From Kocuria rosea (GTDB lineage Bacteria > Actinomycetota > Actinomycetes > Actinomycetales > Micrococcaceae): 64,000 nt of DNA. Of this stretch, positions 6,595 through 36,498 are shown piece after piece (position 1 is the first letter of the stretch; every line of letters begins with the position of its first letter). The position numbers and the translations under genes are program-made. The stretch covers positions 2,790,001 through 2,854,000 of the forward strand of contig NZ_CP035103.1 of NCBI RefSeq assembly GCF_006094695.1. Direction: 5' to 3'. The notes under the pieces were generated by a model. The model had not been told where the DNA came from. It made no database searches and saw only the letters and a program-made list of their open reading frames with translations.

Positions 6595-6937
6595 GCTCTC
6601 ACCCGAGCTTGAGCCGCCGCTGAGAAATTCCTGTCCGCACATGTGCCTCCTCCGCCCCCCCCTTCCCGCACCCCCCATTCCGCCGAGCCCCCCATATCCG
6701 CACCTCCATTCCGTCGAGTCCCCCATGTCCTCGCAATTCCCCATGGTCTAGCGGGGGGATTTGCGACGCGATGGGGGACTCGACACGACGAGGGGCCAAC
6801 CACTGGGGGCTCGACGCGGCGAGGGGCCCATCACTGGGGAGTCGACGCGGCGAGGGGCCCCACCCTTGGGGGCTCGGTCGCCCAGGGGCCCAGAGAGTGG
6901 GGACTCGGCGGGGCGGGGGCGCGAGTACCCTTGACGG
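6595..6937. repeat. Gene-free region filled by a palindrome and a ~31-bp tandem array (element A)
   Basis: This 343-bp divergent intergenic region has a central palindrome at 6713-6784. GTCGAGTCCCCCAT pairs perfectly with ATGGGGGACTCGAC, and inside it TCGCAA...TTGCGA and CCCC...GGGG also pair. On the right, box GGGGnCTCG recurs with its CTCG at 6779, 6810, 6841 (GTCG), 6873 and 6904, a period of 31-32 bp. Each unit continues roughly as ACGCGGCGAGGGGCC. On the left, mirror-image units with CCGCCGAGCCCC start at 6677 and 6708, again 31 bp apart. The right edge runs into the abcF promoter. The same architecture recurs at 29.2, 30.4, 36.4 and 57.2 kb. Confidence 0.9.
6926..6931 (+). promoter_or_regulatory. 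Putative -10 of leaderless abcF mRNA
   Basis: TACCCT ends exactly 6 nt before GTG 6938 and there is no Shine-Dalgarno sequence, as expected when transcription starts at the start codon. Pattern match only. Confidence 0.55.
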
Positions 6938-8782
6938 GTGGCACATCTACTCGGCGGCGAGAACCTGCACCTGGAATTCCCCACCAAGACGGTCTTCGAC
7001 GCCGTCAGTCTCGGCATCGACGAGGGCGACCGGATCGGCATCGTGGGCCGCAACGGCGACGGCAAGTCCACGCTCATGAAGCTGCTCGCCGGACGGCTGA
7101 AGCCGGACGGGGGCCGCGTGACCGTGCGCTCGGGCGTGCGCGTGGGCATGCTCGACCAGCCCGACGTGCTGGACCCGGAGCTGACCGTGGGGCACGCCGT
7201 CGTCGGGGACCGCGAGGAGCACGAGTGGGCCGGGGACGCGAAGGTGCGGGACGTGGTCTCGGGGCTGGTCAAGGACCTGGACTGGGACGCGAAGCTCGGC
7301 GAGCTCTCCGGCGGGCAGAAGCGCCGCGTGGCGCTCGCCGCGCTGCTGGCCGGCGACTGGGACGTCATCTTCCTGGACGAGCCCACCAACCACCTGGACG
7401 TGGACGGCATCACCTGGCTGGCCCGCCACCTGGACAACCGCTGGCCGAAGAACCAGGGCGGCCTGGCCGTGGTCACCCACGACCGGTGGTTCCTGGACGC
7501 CGTGTGCACCGACACCTGGGAGGTGCACGACCGGATGGTGGAGCCATTCGAGGGCGGCTACGCGGCGTACGTCCTGCAGCGCGTGGAGCGGGACCGGCAG
7601 GCCTCCACCATCGAGTCGAAGCGGCAGAACCTCATGAAGAAGGAGCTGGCGTGGCTGCGCCGCGGCGCGCCCGCCCGCACGGCCAAGCCGAAGTTCCGGA
7701 TCGAGGCCGCGAACCAGCTGATCAACGACGTCCCGCCGCCGCGCGACACCGTGGCCCTGTCCCAGCTGGCGGTCTCCCGGCTGGGCAAGGACGTGGTGGA
7801 CCTCGAGAAGGTCTCCGTCTCCTACCCCACCGAGGACGACGGACCGCGGGAGGTGCTCCGGGACGTCACGTGGCTGATCGCCCCCGGTGAGCGCACCGGC
7901 ATCCTGGGCGTCAACGGCGCGGGCAAGTCCACGCTCCTGGGCCTGGTCACCGGCGAGGTGCAGCCCACGAGCGGGCGGGTCAAGCGCGGGAAGACCGTGA
8001 AGATCGCGACCCTCACCCAGCAGCTGTCCGAGCTGGAGGACGTGGCCGAGGACCGGGTCTCGGACGTGGTCGCCTCCAAGCGCACCACCTACCTGGCCGA
8101 CGGCAAGGAGATGACGCCGGGCCAGCTGCTGGAGCGGCTCGGCTTCACCAACGAGCAGCTCGCCACCCCGGTCAAGGACCTCTCCGGCGGGCAGAAGCGG
8201 CGGCTGCAGCTGCTGATGATCCTGCTCGACGAGCCGAACGTGCTGATCCTCGACGAGCCGTCCAACGACCTCGACACCGACATGCTCACCGCGATGGAGG
8301 ACCTGCTCGACACCTGGCCGGGCACACTGCTGGTGGTGTCCCACGACCGCTATCTCCTGGAGCGGGTCACCGACCAGCAGTACGCCGTGATCGACGGCCG
8401 CTTCCGGCACCTGCCCCGGGGCGTGGAGCAGTACCTGGAGCTCGCCTCCCAGTCCCGCACCGGCACGGCCGCCGGCTCCGCGAACGCCTCGAACCCGCTG
8501 GCGGCCACGGGGGCGGCGTCCTCGAACGGGACGACGACGGCGCAGGGCGGGCCCAAGCTCTCCGGTGCGCAGGCCCGCACCGCGCAGAAGGAGGTGGGTG
8601 CGATCGAGCGGAAGCTGGAGAAGCTGTCCGCCAGGGTCGACGCCCTGCACGCCGAGATGGCGGCGCACGACCAGTCCGACTACACCGGCCTGGGCGAGAT
8701 CACCGCCCGGCTGACCGCGGTCCAGGACGAGATCGAGGAGCTCGAGATGCGCTGGCTCGAGCTGTCCGAGGACCTGGTCTAG
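6938..8782 (+). CDS. ABC-F family ATPase
   Basis: A 614-aa soluble protein with two ABC domains and no membrane segments. Domain 1 has Walker A GRNGDGKST (about residues 37-45), signature LSGGQ and Walker B DVIFLDEPTNHLD. The linker has the basic, helical ABC-F interdomain region (residues ~215-265). Domain 2 has Walker A GVNGAGKST, LSGGQ and LILDEPSNDLD. The C-terminus is a low-complexity Ala/Thr stretch followed by a predicted coiled coil (GAIERKLEKLSARVDALHAEM). The length and C-terminal coil resemble housekeeping Uup-type ABC-F proteins that act on the ribosome, rather than short antibiotic-resistance ABC-Fs. GTG 6938 is preferred, with a leaderless-type promoter. The next gene follows after 4 bp. 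Confidence 0.93.
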   Translation: MAHLLGGENLHLEFPTKTVFDAVSLGIDEGDRIGIVGRNGDGKSTLMKLLAGRLKPDGGRVTVRSGVRVGMLDQPDVLDPELTVGHAVVGDREEHEWAGDAKVRDVVSGLVKDLDWDAKLGELSGGQKRRVALAALLAGDWDVIFLDEPTNHLDVDGITWLARHLDNRWPKNQGGLAVVTHDRWFLDAVCTDTWEVHDRMVEPFEGGYAAYVLQRVERDRQASTIESKRQNLMKKELAWLRRGAPARTAKPKFRIEAANQLINDVPPPRDTVALSQLAVSRLGKDVVDLEKVSVSYPTEDDGPREVLRDVTWLIAPGERTGILGVNGAGKSTLLGLVTGEVQPTSGRVKRGKTVKIATLTQQLSELEDVAEDRVSDVVASKRTTYLADGKEMTPGQLLERLGFTNEQLATPVKDLSGGQKRRLQLLMILLDEPNVLILDEPSNDLDTDMLTAMEDLLDTWPGTLLVVSHDRYLLERVTDQQYAVIDGRFRHLPRGVEQYLELASQSRTGTAAGSANASNPLAATGAASSNGTTTAQGGPKLSGAQARTAQKEVGAIERKLEKLSARVDALHAEMAAHDQSDYTGLGEITARLTAVQDEIEELEMRWLELSEDLV

Positions 8783-8786
8783 CCCC

Positions 8787-10025
8787 GTGTCGGGCCCGGA
8801 GCAGGAGGCCGTGGCCCTGCTCTCGGGCACCGGGATGGGCCCGGTCCTGGCGGCGGCGCTGAGCCCGGCCGGGCTGTCCGTGCAGCGCTGGACCCGGCGG
8901 CGCGTTCACCACCGGCCGGGCGCCGGGGTCACCGCGGTCTTCGACGTCGTGGCCCTGGCCGGGGCACGGCGGACCGCCGAGGTGGTGTGCGTGAGCACCG
9001 CCTCCCCGCCCGCCGGCACGTCCCCGCCCGCCGGCACGTCCCCGGACCTGGTGCGGACCCGGCACGAGGGCGTGGACCTCGTGGCGTGGCGGCACCCGCA
9101 GGACCCGTGGCTGCCCGGGCTCGCCTGGGCGTCCTCCCCCGAGGCCGTGGGGCGGGAGGTCTTCTGCTCCGCCGAGCCCGCGGAGCTCACCGAGGTCTCC
9201 TACCGGCCCACCCGGCGGGCGGTGCTGCGGGCGGCCCACGGGTCCCGGGTGCGCTACCTCAAGGTGCTGCGGCGGGACCGGGCCGCGGCGCTGCACGCCC
9301 GGCACCGGATGCTGCTCGAGGCCGGGCTGCCCGTGCCGGCGCCCGTGGAGGACCCGGTGCGGGACGTGGTGGTGCTCCGGCAGCTGCCCGGCACCCCGCT
9401 GGCCGCGTCCGTGCGCCAGGACGGCGCCGCTGCGATGCACCCCGAGCACGTGCTGGCGCTGCTCGACGCCCTGCCCGCCGCCGCGCTGGAGCTCCCCGCC
9501 CGCGCCTCCTGGACGGACCGGGTCCTGGACTACGGGCACGCGGCCGCGGTGGCCCTGCCGGAGGAGCGCGGACGGATCGAACGGCTCGCCGCGGCGATCG
9601 ACGAGGCCCGCCGGGCCACGGACCCCGGCCCGGTGGTGCCCGTGCACGGGGACCTCTACGAGGCGAACCTGCTCGTCGGCCCGGCCGCAGGCGGGACGTT
9701 CGGCCCGGTGACCGGGGTGCTCGACGTCGACGCCGTGGGCCCCGGCCACCGGGTGGACGACCTCGCCTGCCTGGTGGCCCACCTGGCGGTCCTGCCCACG
9801 GTCCACGACAGCTACGGGCACGCGCCGGTCGCCGCGCGGCGCCTGCTCGCCGGCTTCGACGCGGCCGTGGACCCGGCCGCGCTGCGGGTGCGCTGCGCCG
9901 GGGTGGCCCTGTCCCTGGTGGCCGGCGCCCGCCGCTCGGGCGGCCCGCCGGACCGGGCCCGGCGCCGGCTGGAGATCGCGGAGGAGTTCCTCGGCGCGCG
10001 GCGGTTCTCGGGCGCGGACGGCTGA
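8787..10025 (+). CDS. Aminoglycoside phosphotransferase (APH)-fold protein
   Basis: A 412-aa protein with the kinase-like fold of the APH/choline-kinase superfamily. The Brenner-type catalytic loop HGDLYEANLL has H287, D289 and N294, and a DVDAVGPG segment ~26 residues later plays the role of the metal-binding DxD. The N-terminal lobe is poorly conserved, but RYLKVLRRDRAAALHARHRMLL looks like the ATP-lobe Lys strand and helix. A 17-18-bp direct duplication near 9002-9037 encodes a repeated PPAGTS. GTG 8787 lies 4 bp after the abcF stop, so the two are probably cotranscribed. Substrate unknown; nothing here argues specifically for drug resistance. Confidence 0.8.
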   Translation: MSGPEQEAVALLSGTGMGPVLAAALSPAGLSVQRWTRRRVHHRPGAGVTAVFDVVALAGARRTAEVVCVSTASPPAGTSPPAGTSPDLVRTRHEGVDLVAWRHPQDPWLPGLAWASSPEAVGREVFCSAEPAELTEVSYRPTRRAVLRAAHGSRVRYLKVLRRDRAAALHARHRMLLEAGLPVPAPVEDPVRDVVVLRQLPGTPLAASVRQDGAAAMHPEHVLALLDALPAAALELPARASWTDRVLDYGHAAAVALPEERGRIERLAAAIDEARRATDPGPVVPVHGDLYEANLLVGPAAGGTFGPVTGVLDVDAVGPGHRVDDLACLVAHLAVLPTVHDSYGHAPVAARRLLAGFDAAVDPAALRVRCAGVALSLVAGARRSGGPPDRARRRLEIAEEFLGARRFSGADG

Positions 10026-10050
10026 CACGGGACGGATGACTGACACGGTG

Positions 10051-10118
10051 CCAGGAAGCACCGGCGCGCGGCCGTTCCGGGCCCCGCGGACCGGGCTCGC
10101 GGCGGGCGCCGGTCCTGG
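10051..10118. terminator. Possible bidirectional hairpin between convergent genes
   Basis: CCAGG and ACCGGCGC (10051-10067) pair with GCGCCGGT and CCTGG (10106-10118) around a GC-rich loop, with a 3-nt bulge. No T-tract. It fills the gap between the phosphotransferase-like gene and the convergent metalloprotease gene. Confidence 0.35.
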
Positions 10119-10892
10119 TCAGTACCGGGGGGAGCGGGCGTCCGTCCGGGCCGTGACCGGCAGCGCCCCGGCGGCCTCCGCGACCGGTGACCCGGAGGCG
10201 CTGTAGGGCCGCACGAACCGGACCGGGGTGCCGTTGATGTCGGTGAGGTGGCCGGCCCAGGCCAACCGGTAGAGCTCCCGCAGGTCACCGAGGTCCTCGT
10301 CCGTGAGCTTGCTCATCGGCCCGTAGTTCATGATCGAGAACGGGCTGTGCGTCCCGAAGACCTCCGAGGGCCACGGCTTCTCGAAGTTCGCCGCGAAGAA
10401 GTGCCGCAGCCCGAAGACGTGGCCGAACTCGTGGATCATCGTCTCGATCTGCTCCTCGTGGGACTGCTCGAACATCGTGGGGTAGACGGTCAGCTCGTGC
10501 CGGCCCCCGTCCGGGAAGAACGCGCTGGCCAGGACGCAGCCCTCCGGGGTGCAGTCCGCGGCGTTGCGCAGCACCACCTCGAAGTCCCACAGGTCGGGGT
10601 CGTGGGTGAACCGGACCGGTGCGGCCGAGCTCCACCGCACCAGGGCCTCGCTCATGAGCCCGCCGACGATCGACCGGCTCTCCTGCGGGTCGGGGGCGAG
10701 CGCGAAGCTGCGCTCCTGGAAGCGCCACTTCAGCATCGACCCCGGCTGCCACAGGGGGATGAACCCCTCGGTGGCGTCGACCACGATCCTGCTCGGGGGC
10801 CGCCCTCCCGGCGTGGCGTGCCCCCTCCCCTCGGTGGCGCAGACGAACCCCTCCGCGATGAGGTGGACCAGGTCTTCGGTCGTCGGTGCCAT
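10119..10892 (-). CDS. Matrixin-like zinc metalloprotease, no signal peptide
   Basis: A 257-aa protein carrying a complete metzincin zinc site HEFGHVFGLRH (H154, E155, H158, H164) and a Met-turn SIMNYG (M188). Upstream lies an edge-strand region VRWSSAAPVRFTHDPDLWDFEVVLRN, as in matrixins. The sequence begins MAPTTEDLVHLIAEGFVCATEGRG with no hydrophobic segment, so classical export is not predicted, which is odd for a matrixin. A ribosome site (GAGG) lies 5' of ATG 10892. The ScyD-like secreted-protein gene lies 147 bp upstream on the same strand. Substrate unknown. Confidence 0.8.
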   Translation of the reverse strand: MAPTTEDLVHLIAEGFVCATEGRGHATPGGRPPSRIVVDATEGFIPLWQPGSMLKWRFQERSFALAPDPQESRSIVGGLMSEALVRWSSAAPVRFTHDPDLWDFEVVLRNAADCTPEGCVLASAFFPDGGRHELTVYPTMFEQSHEEQIETMIHEFGHVFGLRHFFAANFEKPWPSEVFGTHSPFSIMNYGPMSKLTDEDLGDLRELYRLAWAGHLTDINGTPVRFVRPYSASGSPVAEAAGALPVTARTDARSPRY

Positions 10893-11039
10893 GGCTCTTC
10901 CTCGCCTCGAACGTCGTTCCCGGGTGGTCCTGCGTGCCTCCGGCCCCCGGAGGCCGGTCGGTGCGGTCCGGCGGCGGTCCGGCGGCGGTGGCGGGCCGGC
11001 GCCGCGCCACCGCCGTCGTCGTTCCTCCGGCGCCGGGGC
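10893..11039 (-). other. 147-bp spacer with small hairpin and GGCGGTCC repeats
   Basis: Holds a perfect 8-bp hairpin GCCTCCGG-CCC-CCGGAGGC (10936-10954) and a short run of GCGGCGGTCC direct repeats. No T-tract. It may weakly separate the two minus-strand genes. Confidence 0.35.
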
Positions 11040-12311
11040 CTACTCCCTGGTGTCCTCCAGGCGGTAGGCGTCCGAGAAGTCCAGCTCCCAGACCGCTCCG
11101 CCGCCGACGGCGCCGAACGGGTTCTGGGGGCCCTCCGCGATCCCCTCGGCCGGAGCCACGCTGTTGACCGAGGCGTAGACCTGGCCGTGCCGCCCGGTCG
11201 CCAGACCGGCCGGCAGGGGCACGTCGATCGCGTACCGTGCCGCGTCCTCGTGGTGCCGGTGCAGGACCACCACCTGGCCGGGGACCTGCCCCGGGCTCGG
11301 CGGCGCCTCCGCCGCCGGGGTCTCCCCCGGAGGCATGGGCGGCGTGGGCCCGAACAGCTGCGAGACGTACAGGTGGCCGCGGTCCACCGCCACGCCGGTG
11401 ACCGCGGTGAAGCCGTCCCAGCGGCCGAGCGCGGTGCCGTCCGCGGAGAACTGCACGACCGCGCCCTCCCCCGGACGGACCGATCCCAGCCCGCCCACGT
11501 AGACGTTGCCGTGCTCGTCGGCGGTGAGGGACGTGGGCACGAACTCGGCCGGGCCCTCCGGGTCGTCCGTGCCGTCGGGCAGGGCGGTGGTCGGCCAGGT
11601 GGCCCACGCGGTGATCTCGTACTCCGGCGGCGCGTCCTCCGTGGCGGTGGAGAAGTCCGGCTCCACCTTCCACACGGTGTTCGCGCCGGCGTCGGCCACG
11701 AGCGCGTAGCCGTCCGGCGAGACCTCGTCGTCCTCGTCCACGTACAGGACCGCGTACGGGTTGGAGTCGATCTGCGCGCCGTCCGGGTTGAGCTCCTCCT
11801 CGGCCGCCTGCAGATCGGCGTACGCGAGCAGGTATTCCTCCCCGTTCTCCTCGGTGCCCGCCACGAGCATCGACGCGCCGCGCGCCTCGAACACCGACAG
11901 GTCGAGCCGCTCGGGGTCGTAGCCCGCGACGATGTACTGACCGTCCACGTCCGTGGCGTCCGCGCCGCCGGGCCCCTCCGCGAAGGACGCGTCCGGCGCC
12001 GCCACGGACAGCAGGCCCTCGACCACGGTCGACACCGCGGGCGCGTCCCGGTGCGGATCCTCGATCAGGGTGACGGCGCCGGTCGGCCCCGCGCACCGCT
12101 CGGCGACGCAGTCCGGGCCGCCGCGGCCGGCCTCGACCACCACCAGGTTCCCGTCCTGGTCCCAGTTCAGCTGCCGCGGGTTGTCCAGGCCCTCCGCGAC
12201 CACGCGCGGCCCGTCCGGCCGGTCGTCCCCGTGCGCGAACGCCGCCGGCACCGGCCCCGCCAGCACCACCACCGCCGTGACCACGCCTGCTCCGAGTCCC
12301 TGTCCTGTCAT
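11040..12311 (-). CDS. Secreted ScyD/ScyE-like beta-propeller protein
   Basis: A 423-aa protein starting at ATG 12311 with a clear signal peptide (hydrophobic core GLGAGVVTAVVVLAGPVPAAFA, cleavage near residue 29). The mature part starts RVVAEGLDNPRQLNWDQDGNLVVVEAGRGG, then NPYAVLYVDEDDE, ALVADAGANTVWKV, PTSLTADEHGNVYVGGL and FTAVTGVAVDRGHLYVSQLFG. These are the repeated GLxxPxGL / YVAD blades of the ScyD/ScyE family (named after cyanobacterial scytonemin genes but widespread in actinobacteria). An LxxG-rich C-terminus gives the last blade. It is exported; function in this lineage is unknown. Longer in-frame starts up to 12437 exist but would bury the signal peptide. Divergent from the bactofilin-like gene. 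Confidence 0.82.
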   Translation of the reverse strand: MTGQGLGAGVVTAVVVLAGPVPAAFAHGDDRPDGPRVVAEGLDNPRQLNWDQDGNLVVVEAGRGGPDCVAERCAGPTGAVTLIEDPHRDAPAVSTVVEGLLSVAAPDASFAEGPGGADATDVDGQYIVAGYDPERLDLSVFEARGASMLVAGTEENGEEYLLAYADLQAAEEELNPDGAQIDSNPYAVLYVDEDDEVSPDGYALVADAGANTVWKVEPDFSTATEDAPPEYEITAWATWPTTALPDGTDDPEGPAEFVPTSLTADEHGNVYVGGLGSVRPGEGAVVQFSADGTALGRWDGFTAVTGVAVDRGHLYVSQLFGPTPPMPPGETPAAEAPPSPGQVPGQVVVLHRHHEDAARYAIDVPLPAGLATGRHGQVYASVNSVAPAEGIAEGPQNPFGAVGGGAVWELDFSDAYRLEDTRE

Positions 12312-12502
12312 GACCCACCCCCGGTCGGATCCACCCGCGCGCCCGCCACGCGACAGCCCCAGGCTAGGACCGCGATCCCGCTCCCACGGGGAACGGTCCG
12401 CAACCGTGACCACCTCTTCACCTACGCACGGGTACATGGCGGACCGCCGTCACACTGGGCCGCGTCTTGACTCCGTCCCTGCCCGGGCGTGGACTCGGGA
12501 CC

Positions 12503-14149
12503 ATGGAGACCCTGCCGGTGCCCCGCACCTCGCCCGTCCCGTTCCTCCGCCGCCTGCCGATCCTGCTGACCTTCCTGACCCTGCTGGCCACCGCGCTCGC
12601 GGGCCTCCTGCTCACCGCCCCCGCCGCGGGGGCCGCCGAGATCCGCGGCGAGGAGAACGTGGTGGTGGCGGCCGACGAGGTCGTGGACGACGACCTGTAC
12701 GTGACCGGCGGGGACGTGGTGGTCGACGGCACCGTGCGCGGCGACCTGCTGGTGGCCGCCGGGACGGTGACGATCAACGGCACGGTCGAGGGGGACCTGA
12801 TGGCCGCGGCCCAGACCGTGGTGATCGAGGGCACCGTGGGCGACGACGCCCGCGTGGCCGGCCAGGTGCTCCGCCTCGGCGAGCAGGCCCGGGTGGCCGA
12901 CGACCTGGTCACGGCCGGCTACAGCCTGGAGGCCCGCCCCGGCGCCGAGATCGGCGGGGACGTCCTGCTCGGCGCGTACCAGGCCCTGCTGGCCGGCACG
13001 GTCGAGGGCGAGGTGACCGCCGGGGCCGCCGCGCTCGCCCTGGCCGGTGCGATCGGCGGGGACGTGCAGGCGGACGTGGGTTCCGCAGACGAGGTGGGGG
13101 CCGTCTGGGCGCCCACCACCGGGGTGGCCGTGCCGCGGGTGGAGCCCGGGCTGACCCTGACCGACGAGGCCCGCCTGGACGGGAGCCTGTCCTACCGGTC
13201 CGGGACGGAGGCCGCGATCGCCCCGGGCGCCGAGATCGCCGGGGAGGTCGTCTACGAGCAGGTCGTGGTCGAGGAGGAGCCGGCCGGGCCCGCCGGGCCG
13301 CTCGCGCTGCTGCTCGCCGGGCTGCGCCTGTTCGTAACCCTGTTCCTGGTCGGGCTGCTCGCCCTGTGGCTGCTGCCCCGGGCCGTGACCGGGGCGGCGC
13401 GCACGCTCCGGGCCCGGCCCTGGCTCAGCCTCGGCTGGGGCGCGCTGACGATCGCGGGGACGGCCGTGGCCGTGCTCGCCGTGCTCGTCGTGTCGATCCT
13501 GCTGGCCGTCGCCCTGGGCTGGATGACCCTCGCCGGGCTGGCCGCCGCGGTCGTGACCACGGCCGTGGTGCTGGACCTCGTGCTGGTCCTGGGCCTGGTG
13601 CTCGCCGTAGCCCTGCTGGCCCCGGTCGTAGTGGGCTTCACCGCGGGCGGGCTCCTGCTCCGGGACAAGGCACCGGCGAGCTTCGGCAAACGGGTGCTCG
13701 CCCTGGCCCTCGGCCTCCTGGTCTACGTGCTGCTGCGGGCCGTGCCCTTCCTGGGTCCCGTCGTCGGCCTGCTCGTGGCGCTGCTCGGCCTCGGCGCCCT
13801 CGTGGTGTGGGCCTGGGACGCCGCCCGCCGCTCCCGCGCGCGCCGGCGCGCGGACCAGGGCCGGGACCACGGACTCGACCGCGGCCGGAGCGGCGACGCC
13901 GGGTCGTGGCCCGGCGGCCCCCAGCACGCCGATCCCCGGCACGACGGTCCGCAGTCCCCCGGTGCGTGGCGGGACGGCTCCCAGCGGGACGGCTCCCCGT
14001 CCGCCGGTTCGTGGCAGGACGGCCCCGGCCGCACCGGTTCCGAGCAGGCCGGTCCCGGGCACGCGCCGCCGGGACCGCCGGAACAGCACCGGCCGCCGTG
14101 GGCCGGCGAGCGCCCGGGGCGGCAGCTCCCCCCGGAGCCGCCGCGCTGA
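12503..14149 (+). CDS. Bactofilin-like (polymer-forming) domain fused to membrane domain
   Basis: A 548-aa protein. ATG 12503 is chosen because it places a classical signal peptide at residues 1-45 (core PILLTFLTLLATALAGLLL, AxA-type site). A TTG at 12467 is an alternative. Residues ~48-250 form short right-handed beta-helix-like turns such as DVVVDGTVRGDLLVAAGTVTINGTVEGDLMAAAQTVVIEGTVGDD (quoted only as the repeated GTVxGD theme), the hallmark of polymer-forming cytoskeletal proteins. Residues ~265-455 hold about six membrane helices, followed by an Arg-rich, then Gly/Pro/Asp-rich disordered C-terminus. The beta-helix would face outward, unlike cytoplasmic bactofilins. Role unknown, probably cell envelope. 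Confidence 0.75.
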   Translation: METLPVPRTSPVPFLRRLPILLTFLTLLATALAGLLLTAPAAGAAEIRGEENVVVAADEVVDDDLYVTGGDVVVDGTVRGDLLVAAGTVTINGTVEGDLMAAAQTVVIEGTVGDDARVAGQVLRLGEQARVADDLVTAGYSLEARPGAEIGGDVLLGAYQALLAGTVEGEVTAGAAALALAGAIGGDVQADVGSADEVGAVWAPTTGVAVPRVEPGLTLTDEARLDGSLSYRSGTEAAIAPGAEIAGEVVYEQVVVEEEPAGPAGPLALLLAGLRLFVTLFLVGLLALWLLPRAVTGAARTLRARPWLSLGWGALTIAGTAVAVLAVLVVSILLAVALGWMTLAGLAAAVVTTAVVLDLVLVLGLVLAVALLAPVVVGFTAGGLLLRDKAPASFGKRVLALALGLLVYVLLRAVPFLGPVVGLLVALLGLGALVVWAWDAARRSRARRRADQGRDHGLDRGRSGDAGSWPGGPQHADPRHDGPQSPGAWRDGSQRDGSPSAGSWQDGPGRTGSEQAGPGHAPPGPPEQHRPPWAGERPGRQLPPEPPR

Positions 14150-14152
14150 GCC

Positions 14153-14599: not shown

Positions 14600-14766
14600 G
14601 TCAGTCATTCCCCCCTCGGGATCCTGCCGGGGCCTCCTCAGCCCCGGCCCGGTGGACCGCCCGGACTGCGCCGGAGGTCCCTCTCGGTCTGCTCGCCGCG
14701 AGCACCTCGGGTGCGCGGCGGAAATCTGTGGGCCCGCCCGCCCGCAGCGGACGGGCAGGTGTCGGT

Positions 14767-27300: not shown

Positions 27301-27315
27301 GCCGGAGGCCAGGGG

Positions 27316-28263: not shown

Positions 28264-29162
28264 GCCCCGCGCACCCCGGCGGTCAGGCCCGCGGCGGCGC
28301 CGGCCCGCGCGATCCGGGCGAACTCGTGGACGTCCAGCTTCTCCCCGCGCTCCCCGGGGTCGATCCCGGCGGCCTCGAGGATCTCGCCGGCCGCCGCGGC
28401 GGAGCCCGCCCAGCCGGCGAGGGCGGCCCGCAGGGTCTTGCGCCGCTGGGCAAAGGCGGCGTCCACCGCGGCGAAGACCAGCTCCCGGTCCACGTCCGCC
28501 ACCGGCTGCTCGCGGCGGACGAAGCGCACCAGCCCCGAGGCGATCTTCGGCGCCGGCCAGAACACGTTCTTCCCGATCGTCCCGGCCTTGGTGACCTCCG
28601 CGTACCAGGAGGCCTTGACCGACGGCACCCCGTACACCTTGGAGCCCGGCGCCGCGGCCAGCCGGTCCGCGACCTCCTCCTGCACCATGACCAGCCCGCG
28701 GCGGATCGAGGGGAAGCGGGCCAGCAGGTGCAGCAGCACCGGGACGGCCACGTTGTAGGGCAGGTTCGCCACCAGGGCGGTCGGCTCGGCGGGCAGCTCC
28801 TGCACGCGCATGGCGTCCTGCTCGAGCACGGTCAGCCGTCCGGCCCGCTCGGGGCGCAGCCGCTCCACGGTGTGCGGCAGCTGCGCCGCCAGCGGGGGGT
28901 CGATCTCCACCGCCACGACCTGCTCGGCGGCGTCCAGCAGCCCCAGGGTCAGCGAGCCGAGGCCAGGTCCCACCTCGAGCACCGTCTCGTGCTCCCCCAG
29001 CCGCGCGGCGGCGATGATCCGCCGGATCGTGTTGGGGTCGATCACGAAGTTCTGCCCCAGCGTCTTGGTCGGCCGGATCCCGAGCTGCTCGGCGAGCGCC
29101 CGGATCTCCGCGGGCCCCAGCAGGGCGCGGGCGGCGGGCTCTGGCGCGGTGGATTCTGTCAC
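28260..29162 (-). CDS. rsmA: 16S rRNA dimethyladenosine transferase
   Basis: A 300-aa methyltransferase that dimethylates A1518/A1519 of 16S rRNA (E. coli numbering). It has the N-terminal [20 protein letters not shown] motif [10 protein letters not shown], and catalytic [14 protein letters not shown] 29162 is chosen because a TACGAT box sits exactly 6 nt upstream (29169-29174, minus strand), which fits a leaderless message. A longer frame up to 29267 would run into the palindromic element D. In many actinobacteria rpfB lies between tatD and rsmA; here a nuclease-like gene takes that place. Confidence 0.96.
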
Positions 29163-29168
29163 CGCCCC

Positions 29169-29174
29169 ATCGTA
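29169..29174 (-). promoter_or_regulatory. Putative -10 of leaderless rsmA mRNA
   Basis: TACGAT on the minus strand ends 6 nt before GTG 29162; no ribosome site is present. Element D begins about 25 bp further upstream, near where a -35 would lie. Confidence 0.5.
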
Positions 29175-29190
29175 TCGGCCCGGTGCCCTG

Positions 29191-29315
29191 GCACCCCTCG
29201 CCCCCCTCGCCGCCGAGCCCCCACATTCCGGCCTCCCTCGCCGCCGAGCCCCCCACTGCGGTCGCATATCCCCAGAGGAATGCTGGGGACATGCGACCGC
29301 AGTGGGGGCTCGGCG
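29191..29315 (-). repeat. Palindromic element D with 31-bp units on its left
   Basis: Left arm CGCCGAGC...ATCCCCAG (29242-29275) pairs with CTGGGGAC...CTCGGCG (29283-29315), about 32 bp with one bulged C and one mismatch. The core follows TCGCAnnTCCCC and its mirror. Unit CTCGCCGCCGAGCCCC occurs at 29206 and 29237, a 31-bp period, on the outer (rsmA) side. The element is therefore inverted relative to element B at 30.4 kb. Confidence 0.88.
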
Positions 29316-29425
29316 AGCACCGCATTCGCACTCCCCATTTCCCTGCGGCGCGGTCCCTCCGGATTGTTGTTCCCCGTGGCGGCGGCACCGGCCCGCCCGG
29401 CCGGCGCCGGACCTATCACGGAGTC

Positions 29426-30322
29426 ATGACCGAGCCCATGAGCCTCCACCAGCTGCACGACACCGGCCTCAGCGGCCGAGGGATCCGGCGCCGCCTCCGC
29501 GACGGAGATCTCCACCGGGTCCACCCTGGCTACTTCACGGCGTCGGACGCCTATCTGCGACTTAGACCCGAGGAGCAGGCGCTGCTCCGGCACCGGGCGC
29601 TCAGCCGGGCTGCCTCCGTGCCGCCGATCTTCTGTCTCGCCTCGGCGGCCCTGGTGCACGGCCTGGATCTTCGGCGCGTCCCGGCCCGTCTGCACACGCT
29701 CACCCGGCCGGGGCAGGGAACCCACAACGGATACGCCGGCATCGTGAGGCACCAGGAGCCCCTGCCGGCGTCCGACATCGTCACTGTCGGCGGGCTGCGC
29801 GCGACCACAGGTGAACGAACTCTGCTGGACTGCGCCCGCCTGCTGCCTTTCACGGACGCCGTGGTCCTGGCAGACCAGGCGCACTGTTTCGGTCTCACGC
29901 GGGCCCGGTTGGAGCAACGACTACCGGAGTGGGCCGGCCGACGCGGCGTGCGCAGAGCTCGGCGCGTGCTCGCCGCCATGGACACGCGCTCTGAATCCGT
30001 GGGTGAGACCCTTACCCGCCTCATGCTGGCGGAGTCCGTCCTGCCGGCGCCGGAGCTGCAGTGGGTGATCGTGGGCCGGACGGGGACCTACCGGGCCGAC
30101 TTCGCGTGGCCCGAGCAGTGGCTGGTGCTCGAGTTCGACGGCGAGAGCAAGTACAGCGACTCCGCGGCCACGGTGATCCGCAACGAACGGCGGCGCGAGG
30201 TCGAGATCCAAGAGCTCGGGTGGACCGTCATCCGGGTCGGTTGGCACGACGTCGTCCGTACCCCGGCCGCGACCGTCGACCGGATCTCGGCCGCACTGCG
30301 CCGCACGGCAACGCCCCGCTGA
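29426..30322 (+). CDS. AbiEi-like winged-helix + DUF559/Vsr-like nuclease-fold protein
   Basis: 298 aa. ATG 29426 is preferred over upstream in-frame starts that lie within element D; TATCAC sits 6 nt before it. The N-terminal ~45 residues (MSLHQLHDTGLSGRGIRRRLRDGDLHRVHPGYF) resemble the winged helix of AbiEi-type antitoxin-domain proteins. The C-terminal ~110 residues resemble DUF559/Vsr: YRADFAWPEQWLVLEFDGESKY, RNERRREVEIQELGWTVIRVGWHDV, with D and E positioned like a PD-(D/E)xK core. Such two-domain proteins are common, and functionally undescribed, in Micrococcales; no partner toxin gene is next to it. GC at the start is somewhat lower than the neighbours. It is framed by inverted palindromic arrays D and B. 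Confidence 0.75.
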   Translation: MTEPMSLHQLHDTGLSGRGIRRRLRDGDLHRVHPGYFTASDAYLRLRPEEQALLRHRALSRAASVPPIFCLASAALVHGLDLRRVPARLHTLTRPGQGTHNGYAGIVRHQEPLPASDIVTVGGLRATTGERTLLDCARLLPFTDAVVLADQAHCFGLTRARLEQRLPEWAGRRGVRRARRVLAAMDTRSESVGETLTRLMLAESVLPAPELQWVIVGRTGTYRADFAWPEQWLVLEFDGESKYSDSAATVIRNERRREVEIQELGWTVIRVGWHDVVRTPAATVDRISAALRRTATPR

Positions 30323-30370
30323 CCCAGGCTCCATCCCTCCCGGCCCGCCGCGTACCCGCCACTGGCCCGC

Positions 30371-30480
30371 CGAGTCCCCAAAGTGCTCGCATTTCCCCAG
30401 AGAGTTTCTGGGGAAATGCGAGCACTTTGGGGACTCGCCGCGTGAAGGGGCCAAGGTGTGGGGACTCGGCGGGGCGGGGA
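30371..30480 (+). repeat. Palindromic element B with 31-bp unit on its right
   Basis: A perfect 31-bp inverted repeat: 30371-30401 (CGAGTCCCCAAAGTGC then TCGCATTTCCCCAGA) against 30407-30437, with a 5-nt loop GAGTT. It is followed by a direct unit: GGGGACTCG at 30429 recurs at 30460, a 31-bp period, ending in GGCGGGGCGGGG as element A does. It fills the space between two convergent genes and could also fold in RNA as a terminator, although no T-tract follows. Confidence 0.93.
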
Positions 30481-30502
30481 GGGGAAACGGGGGCGCCGCG
30501 GG

Positions 30503-31516
30503 TCAGAAGGGGCCGTACACCTCCAAGGTGTTCGCCCAGAGGCGCTCGCACAGCGGCTCGAGTTCCTGCTCGAGGATGTCCGCCATGCCGCGCACGGTGT
30601 AGTTGACCACGTAGCTGGCGTTGGGCCGGCCCCGGTACGGGTGGGGGGTGAGGAACGGCGCGTCGGTCTCGGTGAGCACGAGCTCGGGGCGGGCGGTGCG
30701 CAGCGCGGCCTTGAGGTCGTGGCTGTTCTTGAAGGTGACGGTCCCGGAGAAGGACATGTACCAGCCGTGCTCGTTGCAGGTGCGCGCGAGCTCCTCGTCC
30801 CCGGAGAAGCAGTGGAACACGGTGCGCTCGGGGGCGCCCTCCTCCAGCAGGACGGCGACGACGTCGGCGTGGGCGTCCCGGTCGTGGATCTGCAGCGCCT
30901 TGCCGGTCTCCTGGGCGAAGCGGATGTGCTCCCGGAAGGACCGCTTCTGGTGCTCCCGTCCCTCTCCCTCGGTGCGGTAGTAGTCGAGACCGGTCTCGCC
31001 GAAGGCCCGGACCCGCTCGTGCTCCCCCAGGGAACGGATCGCGGCGAGCGCCTCGTCGAGGGTCCCGGCGGCCGCGAGCTTCGGCGCCTCGTTGGGGTGC
31101 AGCGCCACGGCGGCCAGCACCCGGGGGTCGGCCTCGGCGGCGGCCACGGCGAAGCGGGAGGAGGGGACGTCGCAGCCGACCTGGACGAGCCCGCCCACCC
31201 CGGCGAGGGCGGCGGCGTCCGCGGCGTCCCGGACCGAGACCTGGACCCGGCCGTCCTGCAGGTCGAGGTGGGTGTGGTTGTCGGCCACCGGGTGCGGCAG
31301 CGGCTCCGGGGCGGGCGGGTAGGAGAGGTTGCGGCGGCGCCCGTCGTCGGCCTGGGCGGAACGGCGCCGGGTGCCCTCCCCCGCGGGGACGTCCTCGGGC
31401 ACGGCGTAGTGCTCGGGCTCGTAGGCGGCGGGGGCCGCGCCCGGGGCGGGAGCGGGCCGGGCGGCGGGGTCGGGCCACAGGGAGGCGGCGAGGAGGGTGG
31501 CGTTGGGGTCGGTCAC
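30503..31516 (-). CDS. TatD family metal-dependent hydrolase
   Basis: 337 aa. GTG 31516 has GAGG 8 nt upstream; GTG 31525 is less well placed. After a long ~75-residue Pro/Ala/Arg-rich N-terminal extension, the TIM-barrel motifs appear: DNHTHLDL (metal HxH), FGETGLDYYR, IHDRDAHADV, HCFSGDEEL, ETDAPFLTPHPYRGRPN. These give the complete metal site of TatD/YcfH deoxyribonucleases. The N-terminal extension is not part of the fold and may be disordered. Conserved neighbour of rsmA/ispE in actinobacteria. Confidence 0.93.
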   Translation of the reverse strand: MTDPNATLLAASLWPDPAARPAPAPGAAPAAYEPEHYAVPEDVPAGEGTRRRSAQADDGRRRNLSYPPAPEPLPHPVADNHTHLDLQDGRVQVSVRDAADAAALAGVGGLVQVGCDVPSSRFAVAAAEADPRVLAAVALHPNEAPKLAAAGTLDEALAAIRSLGEHERVRAFGETGLDYYRTEGEGREHQKRSFREHIRFAQETGKALQIHDRDAHADVVAVLLEEGAPERTVFHCFSGDEELARTCNEHGWYMSFSGTVTFKNSHDLKAALRTARPELVLTETDAPFLTPHPYRGRPNASYVVNYTVRGMADILEQELEPLCERLWANTLEVYGPF

Positions 31517-31677
31517 GGGCGGCACCTCAGGAGGTCTCGGGGGAGCGGATCGGGAAATGGGGACGGGACAGCGGACAGGTCAGCGGGCGGGAAACACGCG
31601 GGCACCGACCAATCTACGAGCTGGGCCCGGGCAGACATACTGGGAGCTGCAGACGCGAGCAGGAAGCCGAGGAGCCC

Positions 31678-32628
31678 ATGGAGTCCTTCCCCCAGTACAC
31701 GCAGGCGATCCTGGACCGGATCAACGCGGTGATCGACGGCAAGCCGGAGGCGGCGCGCACGGCCCTGAGCGTGCTGCTGGCCGGCGGGCACCTGCTGGTC
31801 GAGGACGTGCCGGGCGTGGGCAAGACCATGCTGGCGCGCACGCTGGCCACCGCGATCGGCGGGACGGTCTCGCGCGTGCAGTTCACCCCGGACCTGCTGC
31901 CCACGGACATCACGGGCGTGTCGGTGTACGACCAGGCCCGGCGCGAGTTCGAGTTCAAGCCCGGTCCGGTGTTCGCCAACGTGGTGATCGGGGACGAGAT
32001 CAACCGGGCCTCGGCCAAGACGCAGTCCGCGCTGCTCGAGTGCATGGCGGAGGGACAGGTCACGGCGGACGGCACGACCTACCGGCTGTCGACCCCGTTC
32101 ATGGTGGTGGCCACGCAGAACCCTGTGGAGATGGACGGCACGTTCCCGCTGCCGGAGGCGCAGCGGGACCGGTTCACGGCCCGGATCTCGATGGGCTACC
32201 CGGACACCGCGGCGGAGATGACGATGCTCACCGACCACGGCGGCGGCTCCCCGCTGGAGGGCCTGCAGCCGGTGGTCTCCCTCGAGGACGCGGCCCGCCT
32301 GGTGGCGCACGTGCGCGGCATCCACGTCTCGGACGCGGTGCGCGCCTACATCGTGGCGCTGGGCCAGGCCACGCGCTCGCACCCGCAGATCCGGCTGGGC
32401 GCCAGCCCGCGGGCGCTGCTCCAGCTGCAGGCCGCGGCCCGCGCGGAGGCCGCCCTGAGCGGGCGCGAGTACGTGCTGCCCGACGACGTGCGGGCGGTCG
32501 CGGTGCCGGTGCTCGCCCACCGCCTGATCCTGGACCGGCGCGCCGGCACCGACTCCGCGGAGGAGCTGGTGCGGGCGGTGCTGGACGAGGTGCGGGTCCC
32601 GGCCGAGCACACCCCCCGGACCCGATGA
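31678..32628 (+). CDS. MoxR-family AAA+ ATPase
   Basis: 316 aa. ATG 31678 has GAGGAG 3-6 nt upstream. Motifs: Walker A EDVPGVGKTML, the MoxR insert VQFTPDLLPTDITGVSVY, Walker B VVIGDEINRASAKTQSALLE, sensor 1 VVATQNP, and the arginine finger/lid segment FPLPEAQRDRF. MoxR ATPases work as chaperones in operons with DUF58 proteins. The ATGA overlap with the next gene and GTGA overlap with the third show one tightly coupled MoxR-DUF58-transglutaminase operon. Such operons are linked to envelope integrity in the few studied cases. Confidence 0.96.
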   Translation: MESFPQYTQAILDRINAVIDGKPEAARTALSVLLAGGHLLVEDVPGVGKTMLARTLATAIGGTVSRVQFTPDLLPTDITGVSVYDQARREFEFKPGPVFANVVIGDEINRASAKTQSALLECMAEGQVTADGTTYRLSTPFMVVATQNPVEMDGTFPLPEAQRDRFTARISMGYPDTAAEMTMLTDHGGGSPLEGLQPVVSLEDAARLVAHVRGIHVSDAVRAYIVALGQATRSHPQIRLGASPRALLQLQAAARAEAALSGREYVLPDDVRAVAVPVLAHRLILDRRAGTDSAEELVRAVLDEVRVPAEHTPRTR

Positions 32629-33995
32629 GGCGCCGGCCGGCGCCGGGGCGCACGGCGGAGGGCGAGCGGGCGGAGCAGCCCGTGGACTCCCGCGCCCGGT
32701 TCACGGGGCGCGGCTGGGCCTTCCTGGGGGCCGGCGCCCTGTGCCTGCTGCTGGCCACCTGGCTGGGCCGCAAGGACGTGCTGGCGCTGGCCCTGTTCCT
32801 CGGCGGCGCCCCCCTGTTCGCGGCCATGTCCCTGTACGTGGTGAAGCCCAGGGTGCTGCTCAAGCGCGGCGTGGACCCGGCGCTGGTGACGGCCGGGGAC
32901 TCCGCGGTGGTCCGGCTGCGCGTGCGGCACCGGACCCGGCGCGGCGGGACGGTCACCGGGGCGGTCGCCGTGCACGAGACGGTCCCGGAGCCGCTGGGCG
33001 GGGACCGCGAGCTGGTCGTGGAGGCCGGCGGGGAGCCCGCCGCCTACACCGTGCGCCCCCGCCGCCGGGGCGTGTACGCCCTGGGGCCGGCCACCGTGCG
33101 GGTGGCCGACCCGTTCGGCCTCGCCGCCGAGCTGCTCGACGCCTCCGAGCGCACGTCCCTGCACGTGGCCCCGGACCCCGTGGAGCTGCCGGAGATCAGC
33201 GCCGACCGGCTGCGGGAGTCCGGCACCGACCCGTCCCGGACCGCGCAGCCGCAGCCGGGCCCGGACAACGTCACCACCCGCGAGTACCGGCACGGCGACC
33301 CGATGCGCCGGGTGCACTGGGCCGCCTCCGCGAAGCACGGCCAGCTGATGGTCCGCCAGGAGGACCCCCGCAGCACCCGCCGCCTCACCCTGGTCCTGGA
33401 CCGCGACGAGACCTCCTGGCCCGGGGAGCGCCTGTGGGCCGGCGTGCTCCCCAGCACCGCCGAGTTCGAGTGGGCCGTGTCCTTCACGGCCGCCGTGCTC
33501 GAGCACCTCACCCAGCGCGAGACCGCCCTGCACGCCCTCGACACCTTCGGCCGCCCGCTCCCCCGCGGTGGCGAGGACGACGACGACGCTCCCGCCCGCA
33601 CCCGCGCCACCGCCGTCACCGACGACGGCGCCGAGGACGCCCGGCACGGGCTGGCGCGCGTCCGCCCCGAGCCCGCACCCCGGGAGACGGGGCCCGGCGG
33701 GACCGCGGAGGACGCGCTGGCCGAGCGGTTCGACCGCGACGGCCTGGTCCACCCCGTGCTGCTGGTCTCGGGGGACCTCTCCGCCGCGGCCGCCGAGCGG
33801 GTCCTGGGCGGCACGCGGCGGGCGGCCGCCGGCAGCGCGGTGCTGGTGACCTCCTCCGCCGACCACGTCCCGGACGGGGCGGGGGTGCTCGAGGCGGCGG
33901 GCTGGTCCGTCGTCGTCGTGCCGGCGTCCGCCGCGCCCGAGGACGCGTGGGCGCAGCTGGGCTCCGGGACCCGCGCGGCCGGGGCCGTCCGGTGA
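32625..33995 (+). CDS. DUF58 domain protein
   Basis: 456 aa. ATG 32625 is within the MoxR stop. Two hydrophobic segments near residues 28-70 (GWAFLGAGALCLLLATWLG, LALALFLGGAPLFAAMSLYVV) anchor it to the membrane. An all-beta part follows, and then the DUF58 signature NVTTREYRHGDPMRRVHWAASAKHGQLMVRQED at ~215-250, where the R-H-W residues are invariant in the family. A von Willebrand-like C-terminal part (RRLTLVLDRDETSW) is interrupted by an acidic/Arg-rich low-complexity loop. Confidence 0.92.
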   Translation: MRRRPAPGRTAEGERAEQPVDSRARFTGRGWAFLGAGALCLLLATWLGRKDVLALALFLGGAPLFAAMSLYVVKPRVLLKRGVDPALVTAGDSAVVRLRVRHRTRRGGTVTGAVAVHETVPEPLGGDRELVVEAGGEPAAYTVRPRRRGVYALGPATVRVADPFGLAAELLDASERTSLHVAPDPVELPEISADRLRESGTDPSRTAQPQPGPDNVTTREYRHGDPMRRVHWAASAKHGQLMVRQEDPRSTRRLTLVLDRDETSWPGERLWAGVLPSTAEFEWAVSFTAAVLEHLTQRETALHALDTFGRPLPRGGEDDDDAPARTRATAVTDDGAEDARHGLARVRPEPAPRETGPGGTAEDALAERFDRDGLVHPVLLVSGDLSAAAAERVLGGTRRAAAGSAVLVTSSADHVPDGAGVLEAAGWSVVVVPASAAPEDAWAQLGSGTRAAGAVR

Positions 33996-36409
33996 GCGCC
34001 GCCGTCCGCACCCCTGCGCCCACCCGCCCGCCGGAGACCGCCGGACCGCCGGAGGACGCCAGGACGGGCCGCCGCCCGGTGCGCGCCGTGCTGGGCCTGG
34101 CCGGCACGGTCCTCGTGGCGGTCGGGCTGTCCCTCGTGGCGCTGACCGGGGTCCTCGACGGCGCGGGCTGGGTCCCCGGCGCGCTGCTCGCGGCCCTCGC
34201 CGTGGTCGTGGCGACCACGACGTCCCGCCTGCTGCGGCTGCCGGGCCTGCTGGCGCCCCTGTTCGGCGCCGGCGCCCTGACGCTCGTGCTCACGCTGCTG
34301 TTCCTGCGCGAGCCCGCGCTGCTCGGCCTCGTGCCCACCCCCGGGAGCCTGTCCCTCGGCGCGGAGCTGTGGCGGGAGGCGGCCGGGATCGTCGCGGAGC
34401 GGCCGGCCCCGTATCCGGGGGGCGCGGCGCTCGCGTTCGTCGCCGCCCTCGCCACGGGTCTCGTGACCCTGTTCGTGGACACGGTGCTCGTGGCGCTGCG
34501 GGCGCCGGGGCTCAGCGCGCTCGGCGTGCTGGCGCTGCTGGTGGTGCCCGCCCTGGTGCTGCCCGGGAGCGTGGGCGCGGCCGGGACGGCGGCCGCCGTG
34601 CTCGCGGCCCTGGTCCTGCTCGGCGGCGGACGGCGCTTCGGCGCGGTCCGCGAGCCCCGCACCGCCGCGGCGCCGGGCAGCTGGCCGCGGGCCCTCGTGG
34701 TGGGCGCCGGTGTGCTCGCGGTGACCCTGCTGGTCCCGGGCCTGGTCCCCGGCTTCGTCAACGGCGCGTTCCCCCAGGGCAGCGGTCTCGCCGGCGAGCG
34801 CGCCTCCGGGGTGGGCCCGCTGCGGGCCGTGGGACAGGACCTGCGCTCCGCGCAGCAGCTGCCGCGCCTCGAGTACACGACGAGCACGGACGAGCCGGAG
34901 CTGCTGCGGGTCCTCACGCTCTCCGACTTCTCCGGGGCGGAGTGGTTCCCGGACACCACCGGGCTGGACCCCGAGCTCGACGACCTCGGCCCCACCCCGC
35001 TGCGCCCCGTGGGCGGGGGCCCCGAGCGCAGCACCGCCGTGGAGCTGCGGGACTGGTCCGAGCGCTGGCTGCCGCTGCCGTGGGCGCCCGTGGACGTGGC
35101 GGGGCTCGAGGACGGCGGCTGGGCCTGGAGCCCGCTCGACCTCACCGTGCACGGGGAGCAGGTCCCGCCGGAAGGCACCGCCTACGAGGTCCGCTCGATC
35201 GTGCCCGAGCCCACGTCCGCGCGGCTGCGCGAGGCCCCCGCCGCGCCGGACTCCCCGGAGCTCGCCCCGTTCCGCGAACTGCCGGGCGAGACCCCGGCCG
35301 CCCTCCGGGACGCGGCCCGGGAGCGGGCGGGGGACGCCCCCACCGCCTTCGACCAGGCCCTGGCCCTGCAGGAGTGGCTGCGCTCGGACGAGTTCCGCTA
35401 CGACGTGGACGCCCCGCTCGCGCAGGGCTACGACGCCGGCGGCATGGCCTCCCTCGAGGAGTTCCTGGCCGTGCGCACGGGCTACGCCGGTCACTTCGCC
35501 CCTGCGATGGCCGTCATGGCCCGGGAGCTCGGCATCCCCGCCCGCGTGGCGGTCGGCTACCTTCCGGCCACCGGCGCCGCCCCGGACCAGTCGGCGGACC
35601 CCGACGAGCCGTTCGGGGACGCGGCGGAGGCGGGCGCCTTCACGGTCCTGCCCCGCGACGCGCACGCGTGGCCGGAGCTGTGGTTCGAGGGCTCCGGGTG
35701 GGTGCGCTTCGAGCCGACCCCCGGCACCGGCGACCTCCCCGGCTACGCCGCCGAGGGGCCGCAGGACGGGGACGGGCAGTCGCAGGAGGGCGAGGGCACC
35801 GCGGAGCCCACCGGCGCGCCGAGCGACGCCCCCACCCCGGCGAGCACGGCGGACAGCCCCGACGAGGACGCCCCCTCCGCCGAGCCGACCGCCGTGCCGA
35901 CCCCGGAGTCCCCCGCCGCGCCGGAGCCCGACGACGACGCCGGACCGGCCGGGTGGCTGCCGTGGCTGGCCGGGATCCTGACCGCCGCGCTGCTCGCCCT
36001 GCTGGCCGCCCTCCCCCGGCTCCTCCGGTCCCGCCGGCGCCGGCGCCGGATGCGGGTGCTGGGCGATGCGCAGGCGCCGGCGGCCGATCGGGCCCTGGCG
36101 GGGTGGGCGGAGGTCGAGGACCTGGGTGTCGACCATGGGCTGGGCCGCGCCGCCGCGGAGACGCCCCGGGCCTACGTGGACCGGCTCGGCGCCGTGGTCC
36201 CGGCCGCCGCGCCGGCGCTGGGGCGGCTCGGCCGGGACGTGGAGCGGGCCCTCTACGCGCCGGGCACCGCGGAATGGACCCCCGAGGCCGGCCCGGAGGA
36301 CGTCGCCGCGCTGCGGACGGGTCTCGCCGAGCGCGGCGGCCCCGGCGCACGGCGCGCCCGGTGGCTCCCCCGCTCGGTGACGACCCGCTCGGTGCCGCCC
36401 CGCGGCTGA
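33992..36409 (+). CDS. TgpA-type transglutaminase-like membrane protein lacking the catalytic Cys
   Basis: 805 aa. GTG 33992 overlaps the DUF58 stop. About seven N-terminal TM helices (residues 30-270) are followed by an extracytoplasmic DUF3488-like part and a transglutaminase core. There the usual GYCxxFA reads GYAGHFAPAMAVMARELGIPARVAVGYLP, so position 499 is Ala instead of the nucleophilic Cys. The His is kept in DAHAWPELW (H558) and the third element in VRFEPTPG. A Ser/Thr/Pro/Glu-rich stalk, another TM helix (~650) and an Arg-rich cytoplasmic DUF4129-like tail complete it. With the Cys missing it should be a pseudo-enzyme, perhaps a binding or scaffold protein. The DNA reads GCC at 35486-35488 with no sign of frameshift. 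Confidence 0.88.
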   Translation: MSAAVRTPAPTRPPETAGPPEDARTGRRPVRAVLGLAGTVLVAVGLSLVALTGVLDGAGWVPGALLAALAVVVATTTSRLLRLPGLLAPLFGAGALTLVLTLLFLREPALLGLVPTPGSLSLGAELWREAAGIVAERPAPYPGGAALAFVAALATGLVTLFVDTVLVALRAPGLSALGVLALLVVPALVLPGSVGAAGTAAAVLAALVLLGGGRRFGAVREPRTAAAPGSWPRALVVGAGVLAVTLLVPGLVPGFVNGAFPQGSGLAGERASGVGPLRAVGQDLRSAQQLPRLEYTTSTDEPELLRVLTLSDFSGAEWFPDTTGLDPELDDLGPTPLRPVGGGPERSTAVELRDWSERWLPLPWAPVDVAGLEDGGWAWSPLDLTVHGEQVPPEGTAYEVRSIVPEPTSARLREAPAAPDSPELAPFRELPGETPAALRDAARERAGDAPTAFDQALALQEWLRSDEFRYDVDAPLAQGYDAGGMASLEEFLAVRTGYAGHFAPAMAVMARELGIPARVAVGYLPATGAAPDQSADPDEPFGDAAEAGAFTVLPRDAHAWPELWFEGSGWVRFEPTPGTGDLPGYAAEGPQDGDGQSQEGEGTAEPTGAPSDAPTPASTADSPDEDAPSAEPTAVPTPESPAAPEPDDDAGPAGWLPWLAGILTAALLALLAALPRLLRSRRRRRRMRVLGDAQAPAADRALAGWAEVEDLGVDHGLGRAAAETPRAYVDRLGAVVPAAAPALGRLGRDVERALYAPGTAEWTPEAGPEDVAALRTGLAERGGPGARRARWLPRSVTTRSVPPRG

Positions 36410-36424
36410 GCGAGCGGCCCCGAA

Positions 36425-36498
36425 CGCCGAGTCCCCCCGGTGCTCGCAGTTCCCCCGGATCGATCGGGGGGAACTGCGAGCACCGGGGGGACTCGGCG
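36425..36498. repeat. Palindromic element C
   Basis: A perfect 32-bp inverted repeat (CGCCGAGTCCCCCCGGTGC then TCGCAGTTCCCCC) with a ~10-nt centre GGATCGATCG, between the convergent transglutaminase and cyanase genes. Arm bases that differ from element B (CCGGTGC for AAAGTGC; GTT for TTT) are matched by complementary changes in the other arm. No clear 31-bp unit follows, only a GGGGTCAGGGGCGGGG tail. Confidence 0.93.

Follow-up and report, generated by a model that had tools for sequence, protein, structure and literature searches.

Palindromes that accompany a gene of their own have been described for REP and REPIN sequences and their partner RAYTs (REP-associated tyrosine transposases), which are Y1/HUH enzymes. 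In the available text of one report, a single-copy gene is flanked by extragenic palindromes whose lineage matches its own, solo copies are found elsewhere, and different gene copies have different palindrome families (PMC3116915). The accessible parts of a second report give REPs a length of 20-40 bp and a GTAG or CGTC tag, and also describe TIRtrons, in which RAYT-like genes have long inverted repeats on both sides, which differ from gene to gene (PMC3733652). Inverted repeats are also bound by proteins of type IV toxin-antitoxin systems: in the portion of PMC7319586 available, AbiEi binds two 23-bp inverted repeats that are 3 bp apart and bends the DNA, and Rv2827c binds four inverted repeats, the two in each pair being 13 bp apart.

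In a 64,000-nt stretch of Kocuria rosea DNA (the window), we analysed a family of palindromes, two of which flank a nuclease gene. As in REP/RAYT systems, these palindromes flank their own gene and recur elsewhere in the genome. Unlike classic REPs, they are present at low copy number (about 5-9 per Kocuria genome), and they have 31-bp tandem units. As the partner gene encodes an AbiEi-nuclease protein rather than a RAYT, the unit is longer (~74 nt with 31-nt arms) and the REP tag is lacking (the alignment has a CGNCGAG foot), the element is not a REP/RAYT system. TIRtrons share the long flanking repeats that differ between genes, but their enzyme is unrelated, and each flank here is a palindrome in its own right, the two copies being in direct or inverted order. 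The partner protein has an AbiEi fold by fold match, as in type IV toxin-antitoxin systems, but it is fused to a nuclease and has repeats on both sides of its gene. Since no AbiEii (DUF1814) nucleotidyltransferase toxin gene adjoins it, the neighbours being ksgA and tatD, the element is not a type IV toxin-antitoxin system either. It shares with I-Bth0305I and Vsr a nuclease fold with the catalytic-type residues kept, but differs from them in its AbiEi-like DNA-binding half and its own palindromes on both sides, and no intron is evident.

Four palindromes of about 70 nt had been claimed in a preliminary description of the window, and all four were recovered (Table 1, where the letters A-D differ from those used earlier). 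The unit is 72-74 nt long, with arms of ~31 nt and a loop of ~12, and the arm consensus is roughly CGNCGAGTCCCC-N7-TCGCA-NN-TCCCC. We agree with the earlier observation that the outer N7 of palindrome A pairs only in part. The 31-bp units reported outside the palindromes are formed by the boxes CGAGTCCCC/GGGGACTCG; they were found beside A (with one step of 32), C and B, and none was found beside D. The genes on either side diverge at A and C and converge at B and D. The intergenic status of A and C depends on downstream start codons, with the longest left-hand open frames running into both palindromes; beside C, the ksgA start at 29162 is backed by relatives. Folded as single-stranded DNA, A, C, B and D have z scores of -6.1, -11.0, -13.2 and -12.9 (200 shuffles each). 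Another long inverted repeat at 57138-57214 of the window (33-nt arms, 85% complementary, 11-nt loop) is unrelated to A-D in sequence.

Table 1. Palindromes, box units and partner gene in the window
Feature	Position	Strand	Details
Outer box, left of palindrome A by one 31-bp unit	6684..6692	+	
Palindrome A, solo	6713..6784	no strand	30-nt arms, 87% complementary; flanked by a leftward gene of unknown function and an ABC-F gene
Four tandem box units, right of palindrome A	6805..6907	-	steps of 31, 31, 32 and 31 bp
Outer box, one 31-bp unit from palindrome C	29214..29222	+	
Palindrome C, upstream flank of nuclease gene	29242..29315	no strand	reported core with 26-nt arms, 96% complementary; between ksgA (leftward) and the nuclease gene (rightward)
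Partner nuclease gene	29426..30322	+	DUF559/MTES_1575
Palindrome B, downstream flank of nuclease gene	30368..30440	no strand	34-nt arms, 97% complementary; between the nuclease gene and tatD, convergent
Outer box, one 31-bp unit from palindrome B	30460..30468	-	
Palindrome D, solo	36425..36498	no strand	37-nt arms, 97% complementary; between a TgpA/transglutaminase gene and a cyanase-like ORF, convergent

What is unusual in the genome is the composite and not the single box, which is not over-represented alone (51 matches with at most one mismatch, 67 expected); nor is TCGCANNTCCCC (9 at one mismatch, 9.9 expected). The 3.95-Mb genome contains five copies of the strict core, TCGCANNTCCCC-N4..18-GGGGANNTGCGA, of which four lie in the window, and no match to the reversed pattern used as a control. 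A sixth, imperfect and degenerate copy, F, lies at 2.22 Mb, so that the further copies implied by the earlier proposal of a repeat family do exist. For a covariation analysis, we used 24 of 30 collected Kocuria elements, excluding six that were not 74 nt as cut. Across the 31 pairs of the stem, 89.2% of cells are paired, against 79.0% after shuffling, and 15 of the 31 pairs have changes on both sides, a number reached by 8 of 500 shuffles. The covariation score is 0.290, compared with 0.118 for shuffled alignments (none of 500 reached it) and 0.045-0.066 for slid registers, a control that favours this structure because the structure was derived from the same 24 sequences. The complementarity of the arms is therefore maintained, as had been claimed. 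The cells that are not Watson-Crick pairs comprise 24 G-T, 27 A-C and 53 others, and this even split between G-T and A-C gives no pointer to RNA; the covariation may reflect either selection on DNA symmetry or quasi-palindrome correction. A chance origin of the palindromes is rejected by the five strict cores against none in the control, the covariation above shuffles and fold z scores of -6.1 to -13.2.

The preliminary description had noted that no transposase is present. This holds for the genes that we examined, but the description overlooked the partner, the nuclease ORF between C and B. The protein is predicted to be a fusion of an AbiEi-like DNA-binding module (residues 1-186) and a Vsr/I-Bth0305I-type nuclease (190-296), in line with fold matches to AbiEi and to I-Bth0305I/Vsr, and its catalytic-type residues are conserved in 42-48 of 48 sequences. 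Palindrome C lies ~110 bp upstream of its start codon. No methylase or toxin was found among the scanned neighbours. AbiEi-DUF559 genes are present in 202 of 395 Micrococcaceae genomes (E<=1e-20), and in just 63 of 396 genomes sampled across Actinomycetota (E<=1e-15). A plasmid search with the protein returned two partial matches, which cover 45% and 50% of it.

The association of gene and palindrome is near certain. Within Kocuria, the strict palindrome is present in 4 of 27 genomes, and exactly those four have a gene copy at least 85% identical (85-86% for copies other than the window's own), although the close relationship of these genomes means that the co-occurrence does not count as independent evidence. 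Among 40 other Micrococcaceae loci (L133-L172), 20 palindromes scoring at least 16 lie near the gene (~1.1 kb) and 9 far from it (~9 kb per locus, a stretch ~8 times longer); these loci were picked roughly by rank, skipping entries with internal stops, some near contig ends and a few others, and the sample is therefore non-random and tilted toward closer homologues. Furthermore, we aligned the left and right 450-bp flanks of the gene with each other at every locus. The mean score at 80 other Micrococcaceae loci is 32.3, compared with a mean of 12.1 and a maximum of 19.0 for 134 control ORFs from the same regions, and 66 of the 80 exceed that maximum. With a stricter joint control that includes swapped pairs, some of them from related genes, 36 of the 80 loci exceed the 99th percentile. 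A set of 29 loci drawn from the whole of Actinomycetota was compared with 812 swapped pairs; 22 of these loci score above the 99th percentile of the swapped pairs, and 12 above their maximum. Clear flank pairing was not found at 14 of the 80 and 7 of the 29 loci. In the 59 loci scoring above 22, the flanking copies are in direct order at 22 and inverted order at 21, and score equally in both at 16. Eighteen loci had been excluded from the 80-locus test, namely nine duplicates and nine loci from the genus with short matches to the nuclease domain (L098-L102, L104-L107); of the latter, L099 and L101 have one palindrome each, and the finder returned none in the other seven.

The sequence of the palindrome is peculiar to each gene lineage, while a layout with 19-bp and 31-bp spacings recurs. 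Gene copies with 64% identity in two further Kocuria genomes, G005 and G006, have variant palindromes alongside. In the window's own genome, a paralogue at 759 kb (46% identical) is flanked by an unrelated palindrome pair, and this second family has one solo copy in addition to that pair. The share of locus pairs whose flank similarity exceeds a score of 25 rounds to 0.00 below 40% protein identity and is 1.00 at 80-90%, where (above 80% identity) the scores partly reflect shared host sequence and not palindromes alone. Tandem arrays of period 31 occur 12 times near the gene (at 9 loci, including two with Kocuria relatives of the window gene) and never far from it, and arrays of period 19, the spacing of the two boxes within an arm, occur 11 times near and 3 times far, in search spaces of 131 kb near and 383 kb far. 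Periods 12, 15 and 30 show no enrichment near the gene, or a small excess at most (10 vs 23, 7 vs 19 and 1 vs 5, near vs far). Dispersal is weak in one other family, that of G071, with 1, 2, 0 and 1 exact cores in G044, G071, G113 and G094, respectively.

Comparison of Kocuria genomes reveals occupied, empty and palindrome-only states of the site between tatD and ksgA. A window-type gene lies directly upstream of ksgA in 6 of 27 genomes, a distant DUF559 relative lies within the fetched ksgA flank in another 6 (L201, L202, L205, L207, L210, L212), and tatD adjoins ksgA with nothing between in 12; three were not classed (tatD 0.9 and 1.4 kb off, or a contig end). The distant relatives suggest that this gap may be a hot spot for the family. 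The site in G015 has a gap of ~100 bp without a palindrome, and that in G014 lacks the gene but has a single palindrome with 31-bp units. By eye, the empty site of G015 and occupied sites are too diverged to locate an insertion boundary, and neither a target-site duplication nor an exact boundary was found in this comparison.

The solo copies of the window-type palindrome are A, D, E and F, and the stretches examined around solo sites yielded no partner gene. Orthologous copies were called by matching flanks, with letters and unit numbers varying between genomes. Palindrome A has orthologues in G021 and G023, and C and B in G021 (B and C copies flank the gene in G003 and G023, too). D has orthologues in G003 and G023, and G021 has a D-like copy in the same order. 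Orthologues of F are present in G003, G021 and G023. At site A of G023 (L178:17859-17907), the tandem boxes are spaced 20 bp apart, not 31. Judged by eye, the palindrome at site E is perfect in G000, diverged and accompanied by tandem units in G003, represented by box remnants in G021, and absent from G023 and G005. A DcuC-type transporter gene (L192:4156-5595) adjoins this palindrome in G000 and is absent there in the other four genomes. Cargo at site F measures ~1.6 kb in G000, 5.5 kb in G003, including a serine recombinase (L277:338-1741), and 1.1 kb in G023, with almost none in G021. The strain-specific cargo at E and F looks as if the palindromes were serving as entry points.

A gene with its own matching palindrome pair, as is mostly the case in other actinobacteria too, looks like an undescribed and possibly mobile small element. 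Our preferred reading, to which we give a probability of about 60%, is that the palindromes are the cognate sites of the nuclease, and that the gene, together with its flanking palindromes, is a small element, selfish or domesticated, comparable to REP/RAYT systems or TIRtrons but with another enzyme. The REP/BIME-like or miniature-element character suggested in the preliminary description is supported. By comparison with known AbiEi proteins, the N-terminal module would bind each arm as one half of an inverted repeat; arms of ~31 bp and a gap of ~12 would suit a pair of AbiEi-type proteins. The Vsr-like domains might then nick or cut in or near the palindrome, by analogy to REPIN/RAYT systems as set out in the available text of PMC3116915 and PMC3733652, and to homing endonucleases, where the likeness is a fold match only. 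Repair or copying could, by the same kind of analogy, spread palindromes to other intergenic sites with or without the gene, and recombination between flanking copies would drop the gene and leave one palindrome, with a site such as that in G014 as the result. Cognate binding by the nuclease is likely, and the odds that the element is mobilised are about even. More tentatively, at somewhat less than even odds, there may be a new class of mobile element across Actinomycetota, in which the AbiEi half reads the arms and the nuclease half cuts the palindrome, cassettes and bare palindromes spread to intergenic sites, the 19/31-bp layout places the protein, and palindromes admit other cargo, as at E and F.

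The palindromes could instead be only operators of an AbiEi-type autorepressor, with the nuclease acting elsewhere, for example in phage defence, and distant copies being regulon members or relics. AbiEi and Rv2827c do autoregulate via inverted repeats, according to the available text of PMC7319586, and the positions of C relative to the nuclease start codon and of A upstream of the ABC-F gene would fit. However, an operator does not account for the matching copy downstream of the gene, for B and D between convergent genes, for a site (E) that is gained or lost between species, or for the palindrome that G014 retains without the gene, and we consider this explanation unlikely. A still less probable alternative is that the palindromes are host hot spots for recombination or insertion, where nuclease genes settle like any other cargo. 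Although the cargo beside E and F does vary between species, and 12 of 27 Kocuria genomes have DUF559 genes of various kinds near ksgA, the palindrome sequence tracks the gene lineage and not the host, such that two paralogues in one genome have unrelated pairs; flanks are unrelated below 40% protein identity, and none of the 134 ordinary ORFs is so flanked.

In a defence against foreign DNA, palindromes might also label the chromosome or titrate the nuclease. AbiEi modules do form part of abortive-infection systems (PADLOC AbiEi models) and the nuclease residues are conserved, but just ~5 copies per genome, clustered in the window, and no methylase or toxin among the scanned neighbours make such a role very improbable. 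The nucleoid or partition array considered earlier is unlikely because every nuclease lineage has a palindrome sequence of its own. A role as transcription terminators or structured RNAs, also raised in the preliminary description, would fit the covarying arms and the convergent genes around B and D, but we reject it as scarcely credible, given A and C between divergent genes, G-T pairs not favoured over A-C, lineage-specific copies on both sides of one gene, no Rfam family at the gathering score at the palindromes around the partner gene and no terminator-like site found in 29100-30560.

In the open-access literature, at the level of titles and abstract openings, we found no account of palindromes flanking DUF559 or AbiEi genes. 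Many actinobacteria have AbiEi-DUF559 genes, which are annotated as hypothetical endonucleases or orphan antitoxins. If most of these genes have cognate flanking palindromes, they would make up a large and so far unrecognised group of elements, each a gene with its palindromes, that parallels REP/RAYT systems but uses another enzyme. Such cognate palindromes would provide a testable substrate for AbiEi-DUF559 proteins, explain a class of intergenic palindromes, and offer a pairing of DNA recognition and nuclease whose specificity can be read from sequence.

The strict core was also sought more widely. Among 197 Micrococcaceae genomes, a sample with just 13 Kocuria including the window's own genome, it is present in that genome only. 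A scan of genome contigs gave 26 stretches: 5 from Kocuria, 10 from the metagenome-assembled genome (MAG) SZAS-14, 6 from the MAG Solirubrobacterales 70-9, and 5 single matches in Streptomyces, Desulfovibrio, Clostridiales and two Anaerolineae, which look like hairpins that fit the query by chance. The stretches in the two MAGs belong to another hairpin family that has only the core letters in common with the window palindromes, and no homologue of the partner gene was found in them. This family, GCGTTCGCA[GC]TTCCCC-loop-GGGGAA[CG]TGCGAACGC, is dispersed in both of these actinobacterial MAGs (L064-L089; for example L071:2476-2510), and one of its copies, judged by eye, seems to be located within an ispE-like reading frame.
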